The translations under genes and the position numbers were made by a program. From the NCBI GenBank assembly GCA_020631075.1, contig JAHDHX010000003.1:124001-188000 (forward strand): 64,000 nt of DNA. Direction: 5' to 3'. Source of the DNA: Candidatus Altimarinota bacterium (GTDB lineage: Bacteria > Patescibacteriota > Gracilibacteria > UBA4473). Shown here piece by piece: positions 6,782 through 50,665 of the stretch (positions within the stretch are counted from its first letter, which is position 1; every line of letters begins with the position of its first letter). The notes below the pieces were generated by a model that made no database searches, had not been told where the DNA came from, and saw nothing but the letters and a program-made list of their open reading frames with translations.

Positions 6782-8518
6782 TTATCCGCCATCCACGACG
6801 ACATCAAACCGAAAATGGTCGTATTGCTCGCCGATGCGTGCGGTGAGCAGGTGCTGCCCTGGGGTCAGCGCCCATTTGACGGTTTGCCCGTGCCCGAGTG
6901 CTTCCCCGTCCATAAACCAATCGACCTCCAGCTGGCTGGTGAAAGTGGCGCGCTTGACTCGTCGGCGAGGACTGCGCTCCAGCACGAATGACTGGGCGGA
7001 CACGGTTTCGTCTATGAGGCGGGTTTGGCGGTGGGGCTTGGCGGGGTGACCGTGCGAGACAGGTTTTTGCAGCTGGGCTACCGTGGGGTGTGGGGCGGGC
7101 ACGGTCGGCCAGCGTGGGCACTGGGGGGCTGTGGTCTGTTTTTCATTGTTTTCGCACGCTGGCACAGGTGACTCGTTATTATCGATATTAGGGAATTTCT
7201 TGGGAACAGTTTTTGGCTTGTGTTCGGACAGCCACACGGTCAGTTCGGCTTTTTCAGGGTGGTGTTTGGCTTGCAGCCTTTGGTGATCGCCCCATGGTTG
7301 GTCGAGCGTCCACCAGCCTGTGGCTGGGTCGTGCTGCCACCACTGGTGCAGGGTGCGGTTGGCGGCCAGGGGGCTGGTCACACGGCTGCCCCGTCGCACA
7401 GCGTGGGGGAGGACCGTCCCGCGGGCATGGCCGTCATATGCCCCCAGGTGGAGTGTCCGTACGGCACCGCCACTGACCACCTGCGTCAGCAGCTGGGCGG
7501 TGTGCCACAGGGTCGTGGGGGCGGGCGGGGTGTCAGTGCCCTGGGCGGCGGCGGTGGGTGGCTGGGTCAGGGCCCCCAGTCGTCGTAGGCCTTCCCGCAG
7601 GCGGCCACGCCCGAGCCACGCTGTGACTCGCCTGAGCACGGGTGCACTGCCCTGCCAGAGGGCCGTCTGCACTGTCTGCGTCGGTCGCGTGGGGTGAGGG
7701 ACAGTTTCGGAGAAGGGCCCGAGCCCACTGTCGGTGCTCAGCAGATGGAGTGTCATGGCCCAACTGCGCTGGTCGGGCACTTTTCGCCACAGCTGGTCAC
7801 TGTCACGCACTGCTCGCACCGCCCCTGTGTGAGTGTCTATGACTATGTGGCTTAATGCTTTGCGGGTGGTGCGGCCTGCTGCCAAGGGGCTGACGGTTGA
7901 CTGGATGGTTGTGGCTGTCGGCCACTGGTGCGTGAGCACGCACACGGCGCCTCGGCACAGGCTGGGGTCGTCGGTGGTGGTCAGTGGGGCTGTGTCCGCC
8001 CACAGTGTCAATAAGGTTTCTCGTGCCGCGGCCCAGGCTTCGGGTTGCAGCACGGGTGAGTGCGCCTCGGGCGAGAGTATGTACGCGGCGAGCCCTGCGG
8101 CCTGCCCCATTGTCAGGTCGCGCAGTGGCTTCCCCCACCAGAGCTCCGCCAGCGCTACGGCGCCCCTTCGGCCGCGGGGCCCGCCCGTGTGGGCCATCAC
8201 GGCCTCGACACTCTGGCCCCGCTGGGCCCAGCGCCAGGCTAAGTCCACCCTTTGCAGGTTCGTTTCGGCGTCGGCTACTTGCTCCAACCGTCGGAGTGTC
8301 TGGGCGACGCGGTCATGCCCATCGCCTCCGCCATGGTTTATGACGGTAAATTCTCCCAGCACTGCCCCAGCCTCCCCTAGCACCACCACCCGCTGCGAGG
8401 ACTGCGGAGCCAGCGCAGGCTGCGGAACCTGCCCCCCGTCGCTGAGCAACAGCCCTGCCCCGAGTGCCAGTAACCCACACGCAAACCACCGCCGAAATCG
8501 TCGGAATAATTTTATCAT
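6782..8518 (-). CDS. Degenerate penicillin-binding protein 1C-like protein (apparent pseudoenzyme)
   Basis: Remnant GT51 C-half (GGPRGRRGAVALAELWWGKPLRDLTMGQAAGLAAYILSP), transpeptidase-like region (HIVIDTHTGAVRAV...QTALWQGSAPVLRRVTAWLGRGRLREGLRRLG), BiPBP_C-like tail (EVDWFMDGEALGHGQTVKWALTPGQHLLTARIGEQYDHFRFDVVVDGG). Confidence 0.6.
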   Translation of the reverse strand: MIKLFRRFRRWFACGLLALGAGLLLSDGGQVPQPALAPQSSQRVVVLGEAGAVLGEFTVINHGGGDGHDRVAQTLRRLEQVADAETNLQRVDLAWRWAQRGQSVEAVMAHTGGPRGRRGAVALAELWWGKPLRDLTMGQAAGLAAYILSPEAHSPVLQPEAWAAARETLLTLWADTAPLTTTDDPSLCRGAVCVLTHQWPTATTIQSTVSPLAAGRTTRKALSHIVIDTHTGAVRAVRDSDQLWRKVPDQRSWAMTLHLLSTDSGLGPFSETVPHPTRPTQTVQTALWQGSAPVLRRVTAWLGRGRLREGLRRLGALTQPPTAAAQGTDTPPAPTTLWHTAQLLTQVVSGGAVRTLHLGAYDGHARGTVLPHAVRRGSRVTSPLAANRTLHQWWQHDPATGWWTLDQPWGDHQRLQAKHHPEKAELTVWLSEHKPKTVPKKFPNIDNNESPVPACENNEKQTTAPQCPRWPTVPAPHPTVAQLQKPVSHGHPAKPHRQTRLIDETVSAQSFVLERSPRRRVKRATFTSQLEVDWFMDGEALGHGQTVKWALTPGQHLLTARIGEQYDHFRFDVVVDGG

Positions 8519-8544
8519 TGCCAGATTTTACGTTTTCTCTGCCT

Positions 8545-9333
8545 TTATCGGGTCAGGGCGTAGCGCCCTGCGTCCCCCACGCGGGGGTAGTCACGCCAGT
8601 GGCGCACTGTCTGCCCCACTCGCTGCCGCACTTGCACCAGCTGCCAGAGGTATTGCCCCACCCCACCCAGTCGCACACTCGACCCCCCGTCGGCTGCGCA
8701 CTGCCGAAACTGCACTGGGGCTTCGTGCACGCGGTAACCCTCTTTTTCGGCCAGGACGATGAACTCGAGGTCAAACAAAAACCCGCGTGTCCGCAGATAA
8801 GGAAATATCCGCTGGGCGACTGCCCGCGTGAAGAGCTTGAGCCCCACCTGTGTGTCGGCCACGGCGGTGCCCAGCAGCCCTTGCTGCAACCGCTGGAAGC
8901 CCCAGCTGAGCACATGGCGACCCCAACTGCGCTGGGTGGCGGACCGTGGATGCGCCTTCGACGCGACCACGATGTCCGCCCCCCCACGGAGCCACGGTAG
9001 GTAACGGTCGATGTACTCAGGACTGATTTCCCCATCGGCGTCCAAATAGCCAATGACTTGGCCGCGCGCCGCCAGCACCCCGCGCTTGACGGCGGCGCCT
9101 TTGCCTTGGTTGTGTGGCTGGGCCAGTACCCGCAGGTGGGGCAGCTCCTGCGCTAGGCTTCGTAGTTTCACAAGGGTGTCATCATGGCTACCGTCGTCCA
9201 CGGCGATGATTTCGTAGGGTCGACCAGCCGTCGACTGACCCAGCACGGCGTGCGTGTGGCGCAGGTGTCGTTCGATGTTGGCGGCTTCGTTGTAGCACGG
9301 CACGATGATGCTCAGGGCTCGGCTGGGTCGCAT
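8545..9333 (-). CDS. Family 2 glycosyltransferase (dolichyl-phosphate-sugar synthase-like)
   Basis: SIIVPCYNEAANIERHL...EIIAVDDGSHDDT...QPHNQGKGAAVKRGVLAARGQVIGYLDADGEISPEYI: DPM1/DPG-like GT2. Confidence 0.9.
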   Translation of the reverse strand: MRPSRALSIIVPCYNEAANIERHLRHTHAVLGQSTAGRPYEIIAVDDGSHDDTLVKLRSLAQELPHLRVLAQPHNQGKGAAVKRGVLAARGQVIGYLDADGEISPEYIDRYLPWLRGGADIVVASKAHPRSATQRSWGRHVLSWGFQRLQQGLLGTAVADTQVGLKLFTRAVAQRIFPYLRTRGFLFDLEFIVLAEKEGYRVHEAPVQFRQCAADGGSSVRLGGVGQYLWQLVQVRQRVGQTVRHWRDYPRVGDAGRYALTR

Positions 9334-9418
9334 GGGGGGGGTGAGTGATAAAAGAAATAAATCTCATCACTATACGGCGGCCGCTGTCGTCCTTCTAGCC
9401 TCCTGCTTCACGCAATTT

Positions 9419-10345
9419 TCAGTTCGCTCCCCTCTCCGCTTCTTTTTGTACTTCTGTCTTTATCTCTTCACTCATCTCCTGTTGCAGAGCCTCCAGCACG
9501 CTAGCCAACCATGCTTGACCACCGTTGGCTGTAGCAGCCTGCACCAGTTGGGTCACCTTACGACTGGTGATCAGTTGCTCGTCCCACGGGAGGGTGGTGT
9601 TTAGCATACCCCATTCGTGCAGGCGGGCGTCAGCGTAGCCAGTCTGCACCCGCGCCCGCGTCAGGGGGATGGTCCCTGCAGCGAGGTCGTTGACGACGTG
9701 GGCGAGCTCATTCGTGCAGTTGTGCAGCACGCTGTGGTACCACGCGCCTTCAGTGTGGACGGTGTTGGTCTGGGCGGCGAAGCCCTCCAGCACTGCCCGC
9801 GGGGTGAGCGAATTCAGGCGCAAGGGGTGGAGGCGCAGCTGGGCGGCTCGGTCATTGACTCGCAGGTCGAGCATATCAGCGGTGTCGGCCCACACATATG
9901 TCAGCTCATAGTTTCGCCACAGCCCTTGCCACGCGCTGTACTCCTCCCCCTGCTCTTTGCGGGCCTCGACCGACACGGTCACACTGCGCCCGTCACGCCA
10001 CACCCAGTGTAGCATCCCGTGGGCGAAGGCTGGCTGCCCGATAAATTCGTCCACCCCGAACCACATTGATTCGATTTCTCGGAGGTCGTAGGTTTCATCC
10101 TCCCAGACAAAGTCTGCACCGCGCAGCCCGCCTGAGCGGAGGTTTTTGACCCGCAAGGTGTCACCGTCTATGGCGACCTCGGCCAGCTGGGCGACGTCGT
10201 CCGCCCAAAGGCGGTCTGTGCGGGGCACGCGTCGCCCCACCACCACCAGCCACACCAGCAGCACCAGCAAGGTGGCGTATCCCGCCCGCCGCAGGGCGCG
10301 GCGCACGCCCCGCCAGACAACTTTGACGACTGGTGTGGGTGGCAT
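9419..10345 (-). CDS. DUF4105 / Lnb N-terminal periplasmic domain-like protein
   Basis: VTVSVEARKEQGEEYSAWQGLWRNYELTYVWADTADMLDLRVNDR...WYHSVLHNCTNELAHVVND matches the DUF4105 pattern (SVEARRE...GLFRQYEL...NCT). Likely start MPPTPVV at 10345; the track ORF extends to 10453. Confidence 0.65.
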   Translation of the reverse strand: MPPTPVVKVVWRGVRRALRRAGYATLLVLLVWLVVVGRRVPRTDRLWADDVAQLAEVAIDGDTLRVKNLRSGGLRGADFVWEDETYDLREIESMWFGVDEFIGQPAFAHGMLHWVWRDGRSVTVSVEARKEQGEEYSAWQGLWRNYELTYVWADTADMLDLRVNDRAAQLRLHPLRLNSLTPRAVLEGFAAQTNTVHTEGAWYHSVLHNCTNELAHVVNDLAAGTIPLTRARVQTGYADARLHEWGMLNTTLPWDEQLITSRKVTQLVQAATANGGQAWLASVLEALQQEMSEEIKTEVQKEAERGAN

Positions 10346-10416
10346 TGGGGTTTGGTGCTGATGATTGCCCCGAAAAAAATGGGGGAAATTACGCTTCAAT
10401 AAGGGTATAACAAAAT

Positions 10417-10443
10417 CGCCCCAGACGGAAAAGGTCTGGGGCG
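10417..10443 (-). terminator. Rho-independent terminator of the SLH-sortase gene
   Basis: CGCCCCAGAC-loop-GTCTGGGGCG followed (minus strand) by ATTTTGTTAT. Confidence 0.8.
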
Positions 10444-10476
10444 AAAATGTCACCTGAACAAGTAAGATTTAAGGGC

Positions 10477-13400
10477 TTAGAGCTCTGTCGCGTAGAGCAC
10501 GTGGCGATATTGCAGGTCGCGGTCACAGGTGAAGAGAATGGCGTCGGTGTCGGGGTCGCCGTCTCGCAGGGCGGTGATCTGGTTTTCGATCACCCGTTGG
10601 CGGCTGATGACCACGTAGTCACGTGTGACGCCGTTTTTAGTCAGGGTGAAGGTCTCGCCGACGTTGAACCCATCGACCATCGGCTGGAAAACTGCCCCAG
10701 CGGGGTTGGGGTCGCCGCCCCAGACAGACGAGTGGGCAAAGAAGATGTCGTTGTCGTGGACTGGGTCGTAGTAGTACCCCGCACCCAGGTCGGTGAGGTC
10801 AGTGAGCCAGACGCTGCTGTCAGACGGCAAGGTGCTGGCACCGATGAGGTTGCTGATGCCGACCTGTGGGGCGTCAAACCGTACGGTGTCGACGTAGCTG
10901 GACTCGCCACTGTCAGCCATGCGCATGGCGCGGCGGAGGACTTCAAACACTTCACCACGGGTGAGCTGTCGGCCGTAGTTGGGGCCGATCATCGCTGGGG
11001 GGAGGAGGTTGGCGTCGAGGAGGGCGTAGTAGTATTGGTCTTGCCACTGGGTGGTGGCGGTGCCCATCGGCAACGCGAAGGCGTTGGCGACGATCTTGCT
11101 GAGCTGGCCAAAGTTGACCGGTGCCCCTGGGCGGAAGAGACCGTCAGGAAAGCCACTGACTATGCCCTGGTCGGTGAGGTTACTGACGGGGAGGTCAAAC
11201 CAGTCGTCTGCGGTGACGTCGGGGTAGAACTGTGGCAGGCAGCCGACTTTGATGGTCATCTCGGCCGCGCGGACGACCATCTTGCTGACTTCGGCGCGGG
11301 TGACGGCGTAGTCGAGGCCCATCACGCCAGCGTTATCGTACCCTTCGGCGACGTTTTGGTAGTAGAGGTCAACCGCTGCCTGGTAGTAGGGGTGGTTGGC
11401 GGACGTGTCAGGGAAGATGGAGAAGGCTTGGTAACGCTCACGCAGCCAGTCGGGGGTGGCCCCAGTGCTGGGGATGATGTTGCTGTAGACGAGGTTGTCT
11501 GGGTTGCGGTCGTATTGCAAGAACTGACAGTCGGCCGCGGGTGCGTCGGGGACGTACTCTGGTGCGGTCGGTGTGTATCCCTCTGGCTCGGTCGGTGCTG
11601 GGGTGCCTGTGGAGGGACGGTATGACCCTGTGGAGCCCCCACCACCGCCACTGCTGCTGCCGCCAGAGGTGCTAGTGCCACCTGTGGTGGTGGTTGTGGT
11701 GACGGTCGAGCCTGAATTGGTCGTGGTGAGGCTCTGAATCGGATAGGTGTTAACGATGGTACACACCAGGGTGTCGCCCGCGTCAACTGCCTGATAGACA
11801 CCGTTGGTGTCGCAGTCGCCTGAGTAGGCGGCCGTGTAACCCGCGAGTTGGGTTTCACCCGCGGTGAAAGTGCGACCGTCGAGGTCGTCGGGGTTGGTGA
11901 CATCGTGGCAGAAGGTCGGGCCCGTGCCAGCGACACTGCTGACCACGGCTGCTGAAGCGGTGTCGGTGCTGGTGACACTGAGCGTGAAGTCGCTAGCGGT
12001 GTTTGGCCCGCCTGAGACTACCTTCTGGACACAGAACGTCGTGACTGGGTCGGGGTCTGGGGTGACGATGACGTAGTATTCGTTGGTGATGGTACAGGTG
12101 TAAGACTCACCCGCGGTGAGGTCAGTGAACTGGCCGGTGCTGTCACAGTCGCCTGAGTAAGTGGCGGCGTAGTTGGCCACGGCGAGCTCACCCGCGATGA
12201 CGGTCAGGTCGTCGGTGATGGTGATGGTTTCACAGAGCTGTTGGGTTTGCTCCTCGACGTAGTAGTCAGCGCCGTCGGTCAGGGTGAGAGTGAAGTCACT
12301 GGCTGTCAGTGGCCCGTCACCTGTGACGACCTTGGCGACACACACCTCTGCGGTGGTGAGCTCGGGGTCGACGACGGGGGCGGTGTAGGTGTTGGTGATG
12401 GTGCAGGTGTAGGCCTCACCCGCGGTAATGTCCGTCAGCTGGCCTGTGCTGTCACAGTCGCCTGAGTATGACACGGCGTAGTCAGCCGAGACAGGGGCTT
12501 CAGAAGCATAGAAAACGGTGTCTGTCGTCGGGGTGACTGTCTGGCAGAGCTGTTGGGTTTGCTCCTCGACGTAGTAGTCAGCGCCGTCGGTCAGACTGAG
12601 GGTAAATTCGTCTGCGGCCAGGGGGCTGGGGTCACCAGCGAGCACTTTCTCGACACAGATGGTGGCGGTGGTGGGCTCGGGGGCTTGGTAGGTGTTGGTG
12701 ATGACACAAGTCAGGGTTTCACCTGGGTTGGCACTGGGGTAAACCCCGTTGGCGTCACAGTCGCCGCTAAATTCGGCGGTGTAGTTGTCTTGAGGGATCT
12801 CACCCGCGATAAAGAACATATAGTCCTTGGTGATGGCGCGGTCGTCGCAGAGTTTTGGGCCGTATCCGTAGGTAGTCTGTCCGTAGTTTGACTTCACTGA
12901 CAGCTGGAAGTCAGCAGGTGTGAGTGGGCCGCCTTCGACCACTTTCACCACGCAGTACTCGGTGGTGTCGGGGTCTGGTTCGGGGGCTTGGTAGGTGTTG
13001 GTGATCGTACAGTTGTACTGCCCTGGGCCGTTAAGGGTGAGTACACCGTTGGCGTCACAGTCACCGCTGATCACGCCTTCGTACTCATCAGTTGAAATTT
13101 CACTAATGATGAAGTGATTAGGTGCTGTGGCCAGGTCGTATGTCTGACAAAATTCTGGGCCTTGGCCTGTCTTTGTGATTGGCAGGCCAGCCGCTTCAAT
13201 GATTTGCAGGGTAAAATCAGCGGCCGTCAAGGGGCCACCTTCGACCACTTTGGTCACACAGACCTCCGCCGTGGGGCGGACGATGACTGGTGGGTCATAC
13301 GTGTTGGTGATCGTACAAGTGTAGTGCCCTGGGGTCGGGGTGTCGAACACACCGTTGGCGTCACAGTCACCGCTGAAGGTTGCGTCGTAGCCATACACTG

Positions 13401-15573
13401 GCTGCTCACCTGCGGTGAAGGTAAACTGGCTCGGGTTTGACCCACGGATAGTGCGGCACAGTTGGTTGGTGGTTTCGGAGTAGTCCCAGCCTTGGCCGTT
13501 GGTGAGGGTCAACGTGAAGTCACTGTCCGTCATTGTTCCACCTTCGACGACTTTTTCGACACAGAGGGTCGTGGCGTAGTCAATGATGATCGGTGGGTCG
13601 TAGGTGTTGGTGATCGTACAGTTGTACTGCCCTGGGCCGTGGATGTTCACAGCGCCAGTCGCGTCACAGTCGCCGCTAAACTCGGCTTCGTAGTTATCTT
13701 GTTGCACTTCCCCTGCCATGACGGTCAGGTCGAGCCCTGTCAGGGTGTACTCACGACAAAACTCTGGACCACTGCCACTGGCGGGGCGGTAACCCTCTGG
13801 GCCTTGCGTCAGGGTGAAGTCAGAGGCTGCCAGCGGGCCACCTTCGACCACTTTGGTCACACAGACTTCCGCTGTGGGGCGGACGATGACTGGTGGGTCG
13901 TAGGTATTAGTAATGGTGCAGGTGTGCGTTTCGCCCACTGTCAGGTCGGTGAAGACCCCGCGGAGAGAGCAGTCGCCGCTAAACGTCGCGTCGTAGTTGG
14001 CGACGGGGGTTTCGGTGGCGAGGAAGGTCGCGTCAGGCAGGGTGTCACCCGTGAAGGTGTAGCACACGAGCGGGCCAGGGCCCTCGGTGACGAGCTGTCC
14101 GTCGCCTGTCTGCAGGCTGAGGACAAAATTCTCTGGCGAGAGCTTCCCGCCGACGACCTCTTTGGCAATGCAGAGCTTGGTCTGGGGCGCTGGGGGGGTG
14201 ACGATCGGTGTGTATTCGTTGTAGATGGTACAGGTGTATTTGCCTGGCTCGGAAATGGTGAGCGCACCACGCGCGTCACAGTCACCACTAAAGGTACCGC
14301 TGTAGTTGTCGGTGGCGACTTCGCCCGCGATGACCCGAATGGTGGCTGGGCTGAGGGTGTACTCTTGGCAGAGCTCTGGCCCAGGGCCACTGAGGGGCCG
14401 TGCCCCTGCCAGTCCTTGGGTCAAGGTGAAGTCAGACGCGGTCAGGGGGCCGCCTGGTTCGACGACTTTGCGGACACACACCTCAGCCGTGGCGGGTACG
14501 GGGGGCTCGATGACGGGTGGGGTGTAGGTGTTGGTGATGGTGCAGGTGTAGGTCCCCTCTTCGGTGATCTCTACGGTGCCGCTCGGGTCACAGTCACCGC
14601 TGAAAGTGGCGGTGTAGTGGTCGGCTATGGGTTGCTCACCCGCGACGACGGTCAGACCATTGCCGATGGTGTAGGTCTGGCAGTACTGTGGCCCAGGGGC
14701 CGACGTGCCGACATACCCGAGCTTGGTCAGGGTGAGGGTGACGTCGCTGGGGCTCAATGGGCCACCGTCAACGACTTTGTTAACGCAGACCTCCGCCGTG
14801 GGCAGGGGCTCGGGCGTGGGGTGAGTGAAATTAGTGATGGTGCAGTTGTATGAGCCACCAGTCACCAAGGGTGGGTAGTGACCTTCGGCGTCACAGTCAC
14901 CGCTGAAAGAAACGTCGTAGCCCATGGGGTCCTGCTCTGAGGCGGTCAGTTGCCGGCCGTCAACCACTGTGTCGTAGGTGTGGCAAATTTCGGGGCCGTA
15001 TCCTTTGGCTTCATTGTCGTCGGTGCCTGTCTGGGTGATGAAGAGCAGGAAGTCTTCGGGGGTGGCCTCACCGTTGACGACCACCTTGGTCAAACACACC
15101 TCTGTGGTGGGAGTGACTGTCGGGGGCTCAGCGCAGATGGCTTCGCAGGCGGGGTTTTGGTAGGTGGTGCCCTTGGTGAAGTCTTGCACGTAACCCGTGG
15201 AGCTCTGGGCGAAGCCGAAGCTGTCAGGGGACGCGGTGATGGTGAGCTGGCTGCCGACGAGTGAAGCGTCGTAACCCAGGGCGATCAAGTCGCTGACCAG
15301 CTGGCCAAGACCTGTCGTGGTCGAATAGGGGGCATTAGGCAGGGGGAGGGCCGTGCCGTCAGACAGGACAATCTGCTGCACACTGGGGGAGCAGAATGTC
15401 AAAGACAAGGAATAGTCGGCCACAGGGGTGGCGAGACACATCTCACAGCTGGGGGTGGTGGGGTCGTCATTGGCCGTGGCGGGAGCCCCAGCACCAAACC
15501 ACGCAAACGTGGTGACACCCAGTACGCCGAGAGCGGTGAGGCTCAAAAACGCGGAGCGAATGGAGGAAAACAT
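10477..15573 (-). CDS. Giant secreted repeat protein: signal peptide, 11 Cys-rich ~90-aa repeats, Ser/Thr/Gly linker, SLH domains, C-terminal sortase domain
   Basis: Repeats 'TAEVCVTKVVEGGPLTASDFTLT...C...AGE...YxATFSGDCDxxG...YxCTITNTY'. SLH-like stretches (FPDTSANHPYYQAAVDLYYQ...; FYPDVTADDWFDLPVSNLTDQGIVSGFPDGLFRPG). C-terminus DNDIFFAHSSVWGG...DAILFTCDRDLQYRHVLYATEL. Track ORF starts at 15606; signal peptide start MFSSIRSAFLS at 15573. Confidence 0.85.
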   Translation of the reverse strand: MFSSIRSAFLSLTALGVLGVTTFAWFGAGAPATANDDPTTPSCEMCLATPVADYSLSLTFCSPSVQQIVLSDGTALPLPNAPYSTTTGLGQLVSDLIALGYDASLVGSQLTITASPDSFGFAQSSTGYVQDFTKGTTYQNPACEAICAEPPTVTPTTEVCLTKVVVNGEATPEDFLLFITQTGTDDNEAKGYGPEICHTYDTVVDGRQLTASEQDPMGYDVSFSGDCDAEGHYPPLVTGGSYNCTITNFTHPTPEPLPTAEVCVNKVVDGGPLSPSDVTLTLTKLGYVGTSAPGPQYCQTYTIGNGLTVVAGEQPIADHYTATFSGDCDPSGTVEITEEGTYTCTITNTYTPPVIEPPVPATAEVCVRKVVEPGGPLTASDFTLTQGLAGARPLSGPGPELCQEYTLSPATIRVIAGEVATDNYSGTFSGDCDARGALTISEPGKYTCTIYNEYTPIVTPPAPQTKLCIAKEVVGGKLSPENFVLSLQTGDGQLVTEGPGPLVCYTFTGDTLPDATFLATETPVANYDATFSGDCSLRGVFTDLTVGETHTCTITNTYDPPVIVRPTAEVCVTKVVEGGPLAASDFTLTQGPEGYRPASGSGPEFCREYTLTGLDLTVMAGEVQQDNYEAEFSGDCDATGAVNIHGPGQYNCTITNTYDPPIIIDYATTLCVEKVVEGGTMTDSDFTLTLTNGQGWDYSETTNQLCRTIRGSNPSQFTFTAGEQPVYGYDATFSGDCDANGVFDTPTPGHYTCTITNTYDPPVIVRPTAEVCVTKVVEGGPLTAADFTLQIIEAAGLPITKTGQGPEFCQTYDLATAPNHFIISEISTDEYEGVISGDCDANGVLTLNGPGQYNCTITNTYQAPEPDPDTTEYCVVKVVEGGPLTPADFQLSVKSNYGQTTYGYGPKLCDDRAITKDYMFFIAGEIPQDNYTAEFSGDCDANGVYPSANPGETLTCVITNTYQAPEPTTATICVEKVLAGDPSPLAADEFTLSLTDGADYYVEEQTQQLCQTVTPTTDTVFYASEAPVSADYAVSYSGDCDSTGQLTDITAGEAYTCTITNTYTAPVVDPELTTAEVCVAKVVTGDGPLTASDFTLTLTDGADYYVEEQTQQLCETITITDDLTVIAGELAVANYAATYSGDCDSTGQFTDLTAGESYTCTITNEYYVIVTPDPDPVTTFCVQKVVSGGPNTASDFTLSVTSTDTASAAVVSSVAGTGPTFCHDVTNPDDLDGRTFTAGETQLAGYTAAYSGDCDTNGVYQAVDAGDTLVCTIVNTYPIQSLTTTNSGSTVTTTTTTGGTSTSGGSSSGGGGGSTGSYRPSTGTPAPTEPEGYTPTAPEYVPDAPAADCQFLQYDRNPDNLVYSNIIPSTGATPDWLRERYQAFSIFPDTSANHPYYQAAVDLYYQNVAEGYDNAGVMGLDYAVTRAEVSKMVVRAAEMTIKVGCLPQFYPDVTADDWFDLPVSNLTDQGIVSGFPDGLFRPGAPVNFGQLSKIVANAFALPMGTATTQWQDQYYYALLDANLLPPAMIGPNYGRQLTRGEVFEVLRRAMRMADSGESSYVDTVRFDAPQVGISNLIGASTLPSDSSVWLTDLTDLGAGYYYDPVHDNDIFFAHSSVWGGDPNPAGAVFQPMVDGFNVGETFTLTKNGVTRDYVVISRQRVIENQITALRDGDPDTDAILFTCDRDLQYRHVLYATEL
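11741..15105 (-). repeat. 11 tandem protein repeats within the SLH-sortase protein
   Basis: Eleven units each ending in C(T/V)I(T/V/Y)N and containing SGDC, counted by eye in the translation. Confidence 0.85.
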
Positions 15574-15735
15574 GAAGTAAAAATGAAGAGGAGAGAAAAC
15601 TGTCACCTATACCAACGGAGAAACAGTTCGAAATGTCACTAAATTATTATTTACAATTTGTCAAAATAAAATTAAAATACATATTGGAATAATTATTTGG
15701 GGTGACGGTCTGTCTGCCCTACACTCTGACTCGAT

Positions 15736-17274
15736 ATGGCTCTCTCAGATAAAGTACTCGATGCGACAATCATGGTCCTGTGTGGGGTGGTGGGGTACCA
15801 GGCCTATATGATCTATGCGGAGCGACTAGTGCCCACAACCCCAGTGGCAGCAGAGGCCGTGCAAACCGCGAGTGATGACCGCCAAGCCCAGGGGGACATT
15901 ACCCAGGCGGGGGTCGACGTGGCGGCAATGGGCGGCCCCGTGGAGGGAGGAAACGAGCCAGTGCGATTGGCTTTCGAGCGAGTGGAATTCGTGCCCCCGA
16001 CGGTGGAGCAGAGCCACGAAGGGATAGTCGGAGATGAGCCTGTCCTGCTGAGCTGTGAGACGGTCAACCCTGACCAGCTGGCCGAAATGGGCGACGAAGC
16101 GGCGCTGCTGCTGGCGGAGAGCTGCGGGGCGGGGATGGTGTATGAGGAGGGGTCAGAGGAGCAAGAAGAGAAAATAGATGAACAAGGTCAAGAGAGTGAA
16201 GAGGAAGAACAAAAAGAAGGAGACGAAAATTCTACGGCAGAGCGTACAGAAAGTGAAGAAACTGCAATAAGCGCAGAAACCTCAGCAGAGTCAGGAGGGG
16301 AAAAAGACGCTCAAAACGAGGCTGGCGATGAAGAGGCGGAAAAAGAGAATGAATCAACCGTGATAGAAGAAGAGGCCGACAGAAAGGAAGATGAGGATAA
16401 GAACAGTGACAGTGATGAAAGCGATGAGGAAGAGAGTGAAGAAGAAGAAGAAGAAGAAGAAGAAGAAGAAGAAGAAGAAGAAGAAGAACCACTGGCTCCT
16501 ACCAAGAAAATTCTGACGGAATACAAACAAGTGCGGGACTTCACGGTGCCGGAGGAGGTGCTGACGGAAATCCTCAACTGGAAGCACGTGCAGCGCACTG
16601 GTACGGTGACTCCGACCGTGCTCGACGACGTGAACCATTACGTCACTGACCCTGAGCTGATCAGACAAGGGATAGTGGAGCTGGTCGGGGTGGGGGTGAC
16701 AGACTTCGGGGGGTCAACCGCCAACCGCGTGCACAACATCCGCACCGTGGTGGACAAATTTGACGGGACGATCGTGCCGCCTGGGTACACATTTTCGTTT
16801 AATGAGATATTACAGTCCGTCCACCCGTCGCTGGGGTACCGCAAGGCAAAAGTCATCATCAGCGGGGAAACGAAGTATGGCCTCGGGGGGGGGATATGCC
16901 AGTACTCGACGACACTCTTCCGCAGTGTGTACAACGCAGGGTTACCCATCGCCCAGCGGCGCAACCACACCTACCCCGTGCACTACTATTCCCCCCAAGG
17001 CTTTGACGCGACGATTTATCTGGGGGTGCAGGATTTCCAGTTTACCAATGACTCGGAGTCGAGTGTGATGATCCAGACGGTGATACGCGGGACGAAGCTC
17101 GTGGTGCTGACTTACGGCGTGCGGGACCGTGAAACCACCCTGCGGGGGCCCAACATTCGCGGAAATATGTGGTCAGGGATGACGGCGACCTGGGCGCGAC
17201 GGGTAGACTACAAAGATGAGACGCGGGAGGCCGAAGAGGAAGTGCTGTATTCGCAGTATCGGCCGCCGCGGTAG
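15736..17274 (+). CDS. VanW family protein with a poly-Glu acidic linker
   Basis: VanW-like core: TDFGGSTANRVHNIRTVVDKFDGTIVPPGYTFSFNEIL...KYGLGGGICQYSTTLFRSVYNAGLPIAQRRNHTYPVHYYSPQGFDATIY. Confidence 0.85.
   Translation: MALSDKVLDATIMVLCGVVGYQAYMIYAERLVPTTPVAAEAVQTASDDRQAQGDITQAGVDVAAMGGPVEGGNEPVRLAFERVEFVPPTVEQSHEGIVGDEPVLLSCETVNPDQLAEMGDEAALLLAESCGAGMVYEEGSEEQEEKIDEQGQESEEEEQKEGDENSTAERTESEETAISAETSAESGGEKDAQNEAGDEEAEKENESTVIEEEADRKEDEDKNSDSDESDEEESEEEEEEEEEEEEEEEEEPLAPTKKILTEYKQVRDFTVPEEVLTEILNWKHVQRTGTVTPTVLDDVNHYVTDPELIRQGIVELVGVGVTDFGGSTANRVHNIRTVVDKFDGTIVPPGYTFSFNEILQSVHPSLGYRKAKVIISGETKYGLGGGICQYSTTLFRSVYNAGLPIAQRRNHTYPVHYYSPQGFDATIYLGVQDFQFTNDSESSVMIQTVIRGTKLVVLTYGVRDRETTLRGPNIRGNMWSGMTATWARRVDYKDETREAEEEVLYSQYRPPR
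16438..16488 (+). repeat. (GAA)17 trinucleotide microsatellite inside the VanW-family CDS
   Basis: Uninterrupted GAA run read directly; encodes poly-Glu. Confidence 0.95.
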
Positions 17275-48664: not shown

Positions 48665-50665
48665 TTATATATTTAGTAATTTGTACAATATAAATGCGGC
48701 TTCACCGCGGGTTATGCTTTCGTGCGGTTGCACGCGATAGACTCGATTGGCGGGGAGGGCTTCGTGCTCAAGCGCGTAGGCGATGTAGGGCGCAAACCAG
48801 TCGCTGGAGCGGACATCTTTCGCCACCCGATGATATGGCTGGGGGATCTGGGCCCCAGTGGTGCGAGCGGCCAGCGTGACAAACTCGGCCCGAGTGACTG
48901 ACCGTGCTGGGCGGAAGGTGTTGTCGTCGTACCCAGTGACGTACTGGTGGGTGAGGGCTGTTTCTAGGTACGGGACGTACCACGTGTTGGGCTCTGTGTC
49001 GTGGAAGGGGAGGTCAACGGTGTAAGCGAGGTCAATCCCCAGACCTTCGATCAATAGTTTGACGGTTTCCGCGCGGTTGACTTCGTTGTCTGGGCGATAG
49101 GTTTGGTCTTGGTATCCGTTGATCACTCCGCGCTGGTGCAGTGCTTTGATTGCCTCGGCATACTGATGGTCAGTGATGTCTTTCAGCGTTGAGTGGGGTT
49201 CGGGGGCTGGAGCTGGCTGTAACTGGGGTTCTGCAGGTGGTTCTGGCGCACTGTCGGGTATGAGTTTGGGCTGCGGCAGTGGTGGGGTGACGGTGGTGGG
49301 TTTTTCTTGCCCGTCTATGACGGCTGAAGCGGTCTGGCCCCAGGCCCCTTCGGCGATCACCTTCATGCCTGCAGTTGACTGGGTGAGGAGGTCAACGGTC
49401 GCTTGGCCGTTTTGCAGCTGGTGCGCGGTGAGGTAGGTCGGACTGAGGAAGGCTTGGTCACCCAGACTCGTCCGCAGGCGTACCCCTGCCGACAAGTCGG
49501 TCGCGGGGTCGATGGTGAGAGTGACTTGGGTGACCTCCCCCGCGGTGTAGGCCTCTGGGGTGATCCATTGGGGTTCCGCAACTGGCTGGCTGGCGGCACT
49601 GGGGACGTAGCCCTCGTTAGCGGGTGGCTCTGGTGTAGTGTTGGCTTTGAGCATTTGCCCGAGGGTTGTTTCGGTGGAAAGACCTGCCTCAACCGTGAGG
49701 TCAGCGGTGGGGATAAAATCTTGGTATTGCATTACCCACGCCATCGGGTCGATGGTGTACTGATAGGCTTTCTGTTTGCCATACCCCATCCTCACACCGT
49801 CAAAAAATGAGTTTATGCCCGCGGCTTCGATCTCTTTCCAAGTGAAAGGCCAGTAGGGAGAAAAGGGGGCTTGGTTGGTGTCGATCTGGAAATGAAGATG
49901 AGGGGTGGTGCTCATCCCCGTTGAGCCGACCTGACCGATCACTTCGCCTTTGGTGACGGTTTGCCCCACCTGCACAAACTCCGCTGACAGATGAGAGTAA
50001 GACGAACGGTAGGTGGTGCGTGTGTTGGCGTTGTCGAGGGCGGGCACCCCGACGTGGGTCACGACGACGTGCAGCCCTGAGCCATACTTTGAGGCTTCGG
50101 CCTTCGTTACGACCCCATTGGCAATGGCGTGGACTGGGGTGCCTGTCGGGGCCTTGATGTCCACGGCCAAGTGCGACCCACTGTGGGCGGTGCCGTCGAG
50201 CTCGTAGTTGCCCATATACGGCACGCTGTACGTTATGTAGGCGTTGATTCGGTCTTTGTCGGTGATGGTCGTACCACGCACGTCGGTGAAATTAGGGGTA
50301 TAGTCAGGGATGGGGATGATCTTGCCCGCGGGGAGCTGGTCAAAGCGCATTTGCCGCTCGGCGGGGGTGAGCTGTGACCAGTCGGCCATCTGCTGCACGG
50401 GCATGGTGGTGCCGGTGAACTCAATGGGCTGGCTGTCGATCAAAGACGTCCGAAAAAGATAGGAACGCTCACCCAGCCACTGGGAACTGAAAAGAGACAC
50501 GAGCAAGAAGCCGACGATCACGAGGGCAAATGGTTTCTCACGGAAGAATCGCTCCCAGCTGTAGGTCGTGTCTCGTACCTTCCGCGCGGTGAACCCGTGC
50601 GCTGTGGGCGGCAGCGGGGTGTGCTGGTCGGTCACGGGTCGGATTTCATAGTCAAATTCAGACAT
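48665..50665 (-). CDS. M23 family metallopeptidase with C-terminal SLH domains
   Basis: HSGSHLAVDIKAPTGTPVHAIANGVVTKA...YSHLSAEFVQVGQTVTKGEVIGQVGSTGMSTTPHLHFQI (M23); three SLH-like repeats at the C-terminus (INGYQDQTYRPDNEVNRAE, VTGYDDNTFRPARSVTRAEF). Confidence 0.88.
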   Translation of the reverse strand: MSEFDYEIRPVTDQHTPLPPTAHGFTARKVRDTTYSWERFFREKPFALVIVGFLLVSLFSSQWLGERSYLFRTSLIDSQPIEFTGTTMPVQQMADWSQLTPAERQMRFDQLPAGKIIPIPDYTPNFTDVRGTTITDKDRINAYITYSVPYMGNYELDGTAHSGSHLAVDIKAPTGTPVHAIANGVVTKAEASKYGSGLHVVVTHVGVPALDNANTRTTYRSSYSHLSAEFVQVGQTVTKGEVIGQVGSTGMSTTPHLHFQIDTNQAPFSPYWPFTWKEIEAAGINSFFDGVRMGYGKQKAYQYTIDPMAWVMQYQDFIPTADLTVEAGLSTETTLGQMLKANTTPEPPANEGYVPSAASQPVAEPQWITPEAYTAGEVTQVTLTIDPATDLSAGVRLRTSLGDQAFLSPTYLTAHQLQNGQATVDLLTQSTAGMKVIAEGAWGQTASAVIDGQEKPTTVTPPLPQPKLIPDSAPEPPAEPQLQPAPAPEPHSTLKDITDHQYAEAIKALHQRGVINGYQDQTYRPDNEVNRAETVKLLIEGLGIDLAYTVDLPFHDTEPNTWYVPYLETALTHQYVTGYDDNTFRPARSVTRAEFVTLAARTTGAQIPQPYHRVAKDVRSSDWFAPYIAYALEHEALPANRVYRVQPHESITRGEAAFILYKLLNI

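Follow-up and report, generated by a model that had tools for sequence, protein, structure and literature searches.

A CPR surface protein that joins an isopeptide-type stalk, an LPxTG-like motif, an SLH trefoil, and a predicted sortase in one chain and may process its own anchoring

Sortases are enzymes that recognize an LPxTG tag in surface proteins, cut there, and join the proteins elsewhere. In the class C sortase/CnaB-pilin systems (Spy0128, PitB, and RrgB), stalk domains of the isopeptide type (Lys, Glu, Asn) are followed by an LPxTG-like motif, and in Gram-positive pili the pilins and the sortase are separate proteins, the sorting signal of the former ending in a membrane helix. SLH-anchored surface proteins, such as SpaA of Paenibacillus alvei, are held non-covalently through a three-SLH trefoil, without a sortase. 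Fibrillar adhesins have been surveyed with SLH and LPxTG counted as two distinct kinds of anchor and with the LPxTG search confined to the final 50 aa (PMC8286594); therefore, a layout such as the one described here would be missed. In the window (the whole stretch of DNA that was analyzed, 64,000 nucleotides), a single 1709-aa protein carries, in this order, a signal peptide, 11 repeats, a linker, the pentapeptide IPSTG, three SLH repeats, and a C-terminal sortase domain.

The gene lies on the reverse strand, as do all of its features given below, and its translation from a GTG at 15606 yields the 1709 aa (10477..15606). The open reading frame is real, and the coordinate 15573 given for it in an earlier reading made from the sequence only is an internal ATG of the 15606..10477 frame. 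This ATG is the likelier start since it opens a normal signal peptide with an N-terminal hydrophobic stretch (MFSSIRSAFLSLTALGVLGVTTFAWFGAGAPATA, followed by NDD; 15472..15573). The next ~115 aa (15127..15471) have no Pfam match and are a possible tip domain. They are followed by 11 CnaB/pilin-like repeats of ~100 aa (11740..15108) and by a linker rich in Ser/Thr/Gly and Pro (11476..11736); signal peptide, eleven repeats, and linker are all as that sequence-only reading had described them. A terminator-like hairpin lies ~33 bases past the stop codon (10416..10444; one found against 0.2 expected).

Several other features of the window were recorded. Downstream on the same strand (6782-10453) are an Lnb_N-domain protein, a family 2 glycosyltransferase, and a third protein that matches transglycosylase and BiPBP_C weakly. 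Divergent from the stalk gene lies a gene for a VanW-like protein (15736-17274) that contains an extended acidic stretch rich in Glu, and an M23 peptidase with C-terminal SLH repeats is encoded at 48665-50665. Between 52000 and 64000, the G+C content drops from ~0.55-0.60 to 0.41 and the GC skew flips sign, reflecting either an island or a chimeric contig.

On profile, model, and alignment evidence well above chance, the C-terminal 139 aa (residues 1571-1709; 10480..10896) is a genuine sortase domain. The window copy alone scores E=0.012-0.014 (15.6-15.8 bits) against PF04203, under the curated Pfam cut-off of 26.6 bits. That cut-off is passed by three homologues of the same layout: a 2732-aa protein of the same genome (G000:C8; 33.3 or 26.9 bits), a 1450-aa protein (G298; 36.8 bits), and a 1145-aa protein (G325; 42 bits), the last of which has a near-twin in G324. 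When the single domain sequence was used as the query, phmmer against the PDB matched only an unrelated carboxylase, and a scan of the genome contigs found no relative; single-sequence searches are thus too weak, and a family profile was needed to reach the sortases. Built from the first 11 homologues, which are 29-47% identical to the window copy, this profile matched 51 solved sortase chains (best E=2e-6), the first unrelated protein appearing only at E 0.83.

The catalytic residues occur in sortase order, as His1625 (codon 10732..10734), Cys1694 within a TLxTC-like LFTC (10525..10527), and Arg1701 (10504..10506), with residue numbers and codon positions that match the earlier reading exactly. 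All 11 homologues keep the His and the Arg, and 10 of them the Cys. Aligned with solved enzymes, Cys1694 and Arg1701 match their catalytic counterparts in both class A and class C sortases, and His1625 matches the His of class C. In the AlphaFold model of the SLH-sortase block (pLDDT 89, pTM 0.89), the domain adopts a predicted sortase fold, not some other one, and Foldseek with this model retrieved sortases (6bwe; E 3e-6, TM (target) 0.5-0.7). The earlier proposal of a C-terminal sortase is therefore supported by the family profile, by homologues over the cut-off, by Foldseek, and by the aligned catalytic residues. Sortase class models gave weak matches to classes C, D, E, and GN, none of which can be singly assigned.

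Ahead of the sortase, residues 1384-1569 (10900..11457) form the SLH block. Pfam PF00395, searched on this sub-region, reports one SLH only (E 3e-10), the AlphaFold model of the block contains a complete three-SLH trefoil, and Foldseek matches it to the SLH trefoil 7sv4 at E 6e-9; what had been read as SLH-like repeats is, by these three lines, a three-SLH trefoil. As for the pyruvylated wall polymer that serves as SLH ligand, one gene of the pyruvyl-transferase family was found, barely over its cut-off (26.2 vs 25.3 bits).

The stalk repeats have the signature expected of isopeptide-bonded domains. In the CnaB isopeptide pattern, a Lys in the first strand is combined with a Glu and with an Asn in the last strand (PMC12617251). 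All 11 repeats have an invariant Lys8, Glu58, and Asn93 together with four Cys, and in the AlphaFold model of a single repeat (pLDDT 95) the Lys lies in strand 2-11 and the Asn in strand 86-95, with another strand at 54-58, so that the pattern is present in 11 of 11. Foldseek with the repeat returned almost exclusively pilin/CnaB structures as top matches, yet the best E is only 2e-3; FctA (PF12892) matches at E=0.0015, under the cut-off, and the repeat profile has no significant sequence match among PDB chains. Stalk type differs among members of the family, since a 4811-aa paralogue of the same genome (G000:C7) has 28 copies of DUF11, described as a CnaA-like isopeptide domain (PMC12617251). 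This paralogue (G000:C7:107308-107727; L035 2213-16645, same contig) also has an H-type lectin match near its N-terminus and ends in LPRTG, an SLH-like block, and a sortase.

Between the linker and the first SLH repeat lies IPSTG (residues 1378-1382; 11461..11475), an LPxTG-like motif that the earlier reading had overlooked; its predicted cut site is between T1381 and G1382. A motif of the form [LIWY]PxTG stands directly before SLH in 10 of the 11 copies that have sequence ahead of SLH, a count whose members are not independent because the copies are related and two of them (G324 and G325) are near-identical. Besides IPSTG, these are LPRTG (twice), IPQTG, IPKTG, WPRTG (twice, in the near-identical proteins), YPLTG, IPFTG, and WPKTG, the first position being loose (I, L, W, or Y). 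Three of the eleven copies (G004, G007:C71, and G033) are cut short at their N-terminal side by a contig end. The sole exception is FPQLG in G033 (L039 3789-5363, G033:C17), and in this single case the catalytic Cys is gone too, with Ser (codon TCT) instead.

Compared with the background of the open reading frames searched, the frequency of the motif has a P of about 1e-22, a value that ignores kinship and is too small because the copies are related; column conservation in the junction alignment is therefore the preferred measure. In that alignment (mean identity 50%), the motif P, T, and G are three of just five columns that are at least 90% conserved (P about 3e-4). Two control sets lack the motif: sortase-less SLH proteins with an N-terminal segment, taken from the same and from related genomes (0/10; Fisher 3e-5), and SLH-sortases without a segment ahead of SLH (0/23; Fisher 8e-8). 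When a junction profile was run over 60 genomes, only sortase fusions covered the motif, and the remaining matches started after it. Chance occurrence was considered and is ruled out by the background rate and the control sets. In G000:C40, which belongs to the fused clade, both the remainder of the junction and the sortase are preserved, but a signal peptide occupies the place of the motif, and G007:C1 is likewise stalk-less and motif-less. A 492-aa paralogue (G000:C10) has the motif behind only a ~130-aa disordered segment with no folded stalk; a frameshift upstream of this gene was ruled out by its own signal peptide and by the presence of only a disordered linker.

The motif is an LPxTG-type pentapeptide, but the membrane helix and charged tail of a sorting signal are not found within ~50 aa of the C-terminus, and no membrane helix follows the motif at all (highest 19-aa hydropathy, 0.85 over the ~327 following residues). 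IPSTG is thus not a classical sorting signal, although it may work like one, with the SLH block and the sortase standing in the place of helix and tail.

The combination of SLH and sortase is not a one-off. The window genome (G000, 1.46-Mb) encodes five further proteins with an SLH-plus-sortase block, additional fusion copies occur in G007, G004, and G033, and a class-wide search of 353 genomes adds G298, G324, and G325, so that among the genomes searched only seven, all from a single Gracilibacteria-like CPR class, have the family. In a phylum sample of 380 genomes outside the class, searched at E<=1e-20, the clade was found only in G000, more distant fusions falling below the threshold. A search with a four-sequence alignment gave one named match, an uncultured Candidatus Gracilibacteria MAG (L124) that is probably the G007 contig. 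In a tree of 68 sortase domains, membrane-anchored sortases, stalk-less SLH-sortases (mainly families f5 and f9), and the window-protein clade are separate, the last with 100/99 support and including the stalk-less G000:C40 and G007:C1; the inner order of the tree is unsure because of long branches.

Stalk-less SLH-sortases are widespread in the class, which answers the suggestion to look for other SLH and sortase architectures. They share the signal peptide, SLH, and sortase with the window protein and have neither stalk nor motif (e.g., L085-L105). At L085-L105 and L141-L152 they are a conserved gene of family f5, with a ychF-like gene and a ~830-aa ORF as neighbors, and this position is constant across the f5 genomes examined. 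A split version, in which a stalk-less SLH-sortase would lie beside a separate LPxTG stalk gene, was absent from 12 neighborhoods of other families, among which only L144 has an LPQTG protein nearby, of the classical type. At L041 4889-5956 (G054:C1), SLH and sortase are in adjacent open reading frames parted by a TAG stop, representing a split or broken SLH-sortase or else recoding. At G000:C5 of the window genome, three genes lie side by side (L109 3495-7524), coding for a membrane-anchored sortase, for an SLH protein whose C-terminus is thioredoxin-like, and for a classical LPVTGE-helix-charged-tail protein.

The coupling of motif and sortase, whereby the motif is found in the fusions and absent from sortase-less SLH proteins and from segment-less SLH-sortases, would best be explained, at the level of sequence comparison, by self-processing, either in cis or between identical neighbors. 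We therefore propose, with a probability of roughly 0.55, that the SLH-tethered sortase cuts its own xPxTG motif, or that of an identical neighbor, and passes the stalk to an amine. This would proceed as follows: (i) after export, the SLH trefoil would hold the protein on the wall polysaccharide; (ii) the sortase behind SLH would attack the xPxTG ahead of SLH, in the same or an identical neighboring molecule, Cys1694 forming a thioester with Thr1381, the new C-terminus of the stalk; and (iii) the isopeptide-locked stalk would be handed to an amine, e.g., of a wall peptide or of a lysine in another stalk, while the SLH-sortase stub would stay on the wall. SLH plus sortase would then take over the role of the membrane helix and charged tail of the usual sorting signal, and since the protein has its own tag before its wall-binding part, it may process its own anchoring. 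The narrower proposal of a natural autocatalytic sortase that, acting in cis, installs or polymerizes the stalk it belongs to, with an SLH-sortase stub left behind, as a one-gene counterpart in CPR of the Gram-positive pilus operon, is put forward tentatively. The sequence-only reading had envisaged an SLH-tethered sortase on a pilin- or adhesin-like stalk, and its domains and fold hold; of the two functions that it offered, crosslinking of S-layer neighbors and an autocatalytic ligation module, the LPxTG-like motif that it missed would favor self-processing.

The loose first position of the motif and the copy without a folded stalk (G000:C10) weigh against self-processing. The motif could also be cut by the membrane-anchored sortase of G000:C5 (L109), in which case xPxTG would be the substrate of a separate housekeeping enzyme and the fused sortase would act on other proteins. 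Such a membrane sortase (295 aa, L109 3495-4379) is encoded in the window genome, near the classical LPVTGE-helix-charged-tail protein, and in nearly all relatives. However, the same genomes encode the housekeeping sortase together with sortase-less SLH proteins, and none of the latter has the motif (0/10); the helix by which a substrate is normally offered to a membrane sortase is missing behind the motif; and the Cys-less copy has lost the motif Thr as well. We consider this explanation unlikely. Alternatively, the S-layer-tethered sortase may crosslink neighboring S-layer or surface proteins in trans, with the stalk as a mere spacer. The widespread stalk-less, motif-less SLH-sortases must act in this way if they are active, and two members of the fused clade (G000:C40 and G007:C1) have this form. 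Trans crosslinking is thus likely for the stalk-less SLH-sortases and possible for the window protein, but as the explanation of the latter it is rather unlikely, since it does not explain why the motif sits at one conserved spot in nearly all copies with a stalk or linker and not in the bare ones, and the search of 60 genomes revealed the junction motif in no further protein.

The same anatomy would also serve release: if the sortase cut its own motif and hydrolyzed the intermediate, the stalk would be shed from the cell and the SLH-held stub would stay behind. Sortases are known to hydrolyze when a good amine is lacking, but the isopeptide and disulfide signatures of the stalk suit a long-lived, attached fiber, and we regard shedding as improbable. 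Least credible is a degenerate, non-catalytic sortase that serves as a structural or binding module with the motif as a relic. The score of the window copy under the Pfam cut-off, the change from Cys to Ser in one homologue, and the long branches would fit such decay; against it, neither His nor Arg varies, Cys is kept in 10 of 11 copies at 29-47% identity, and the motif is retained where adjacent columns have drifted.

Self-processing of the stalk, if true, would provide a one-protein route to covalent surface fibers in CPR bacteria, a group with little-known attachment machinery, and would mean that LPxTG motifs can sit hundreds of residues from the C-terminus, outside the standard search range. 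In the literature covered, which is mainly open-access, we found nothing on point for SLH and sortase fusions or for sortases in CPR bacteria; the parts are known, and we could not find their combination described other than as a laboratory construct.

Among known systems, the C60 sortases (PF04203/TIGR01076; nearest solved members in classes A and C) share with the window domain the predicted fold, the His/Cys/Arg residues, and the TC motif ahead of the Arg strand. Unlike ordinary sortases, the window domain is without its own membrane anchor, is tethered through SLH, sits inside a giant surface protein, and is not assignable to a single class. It shares the trefoil with SpaA-type SLH proteins and differs from them in having a sortase, and it shares the stalk domains and the following motif with the class C pilin systems, whose separate components are here one chain, with SLH and sortase replacing the helix and no pilin-motif lysine identified. 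The closest parallel to the proposed self-processing is man-made: engineered SrtA-LPETG-target fusions, in which, as in the window protein, a single chain holds both the sortase and the site it recognizes, cut themselves (PMC2901362). These constructs have the order sortase-site-target, whereas the window protein is natural, wall-tethered, and ordered target-site-SLH-sortase, and it would, if the proposal is true, be a natural sortase fused to its own substrate, something that engineers built by hand.
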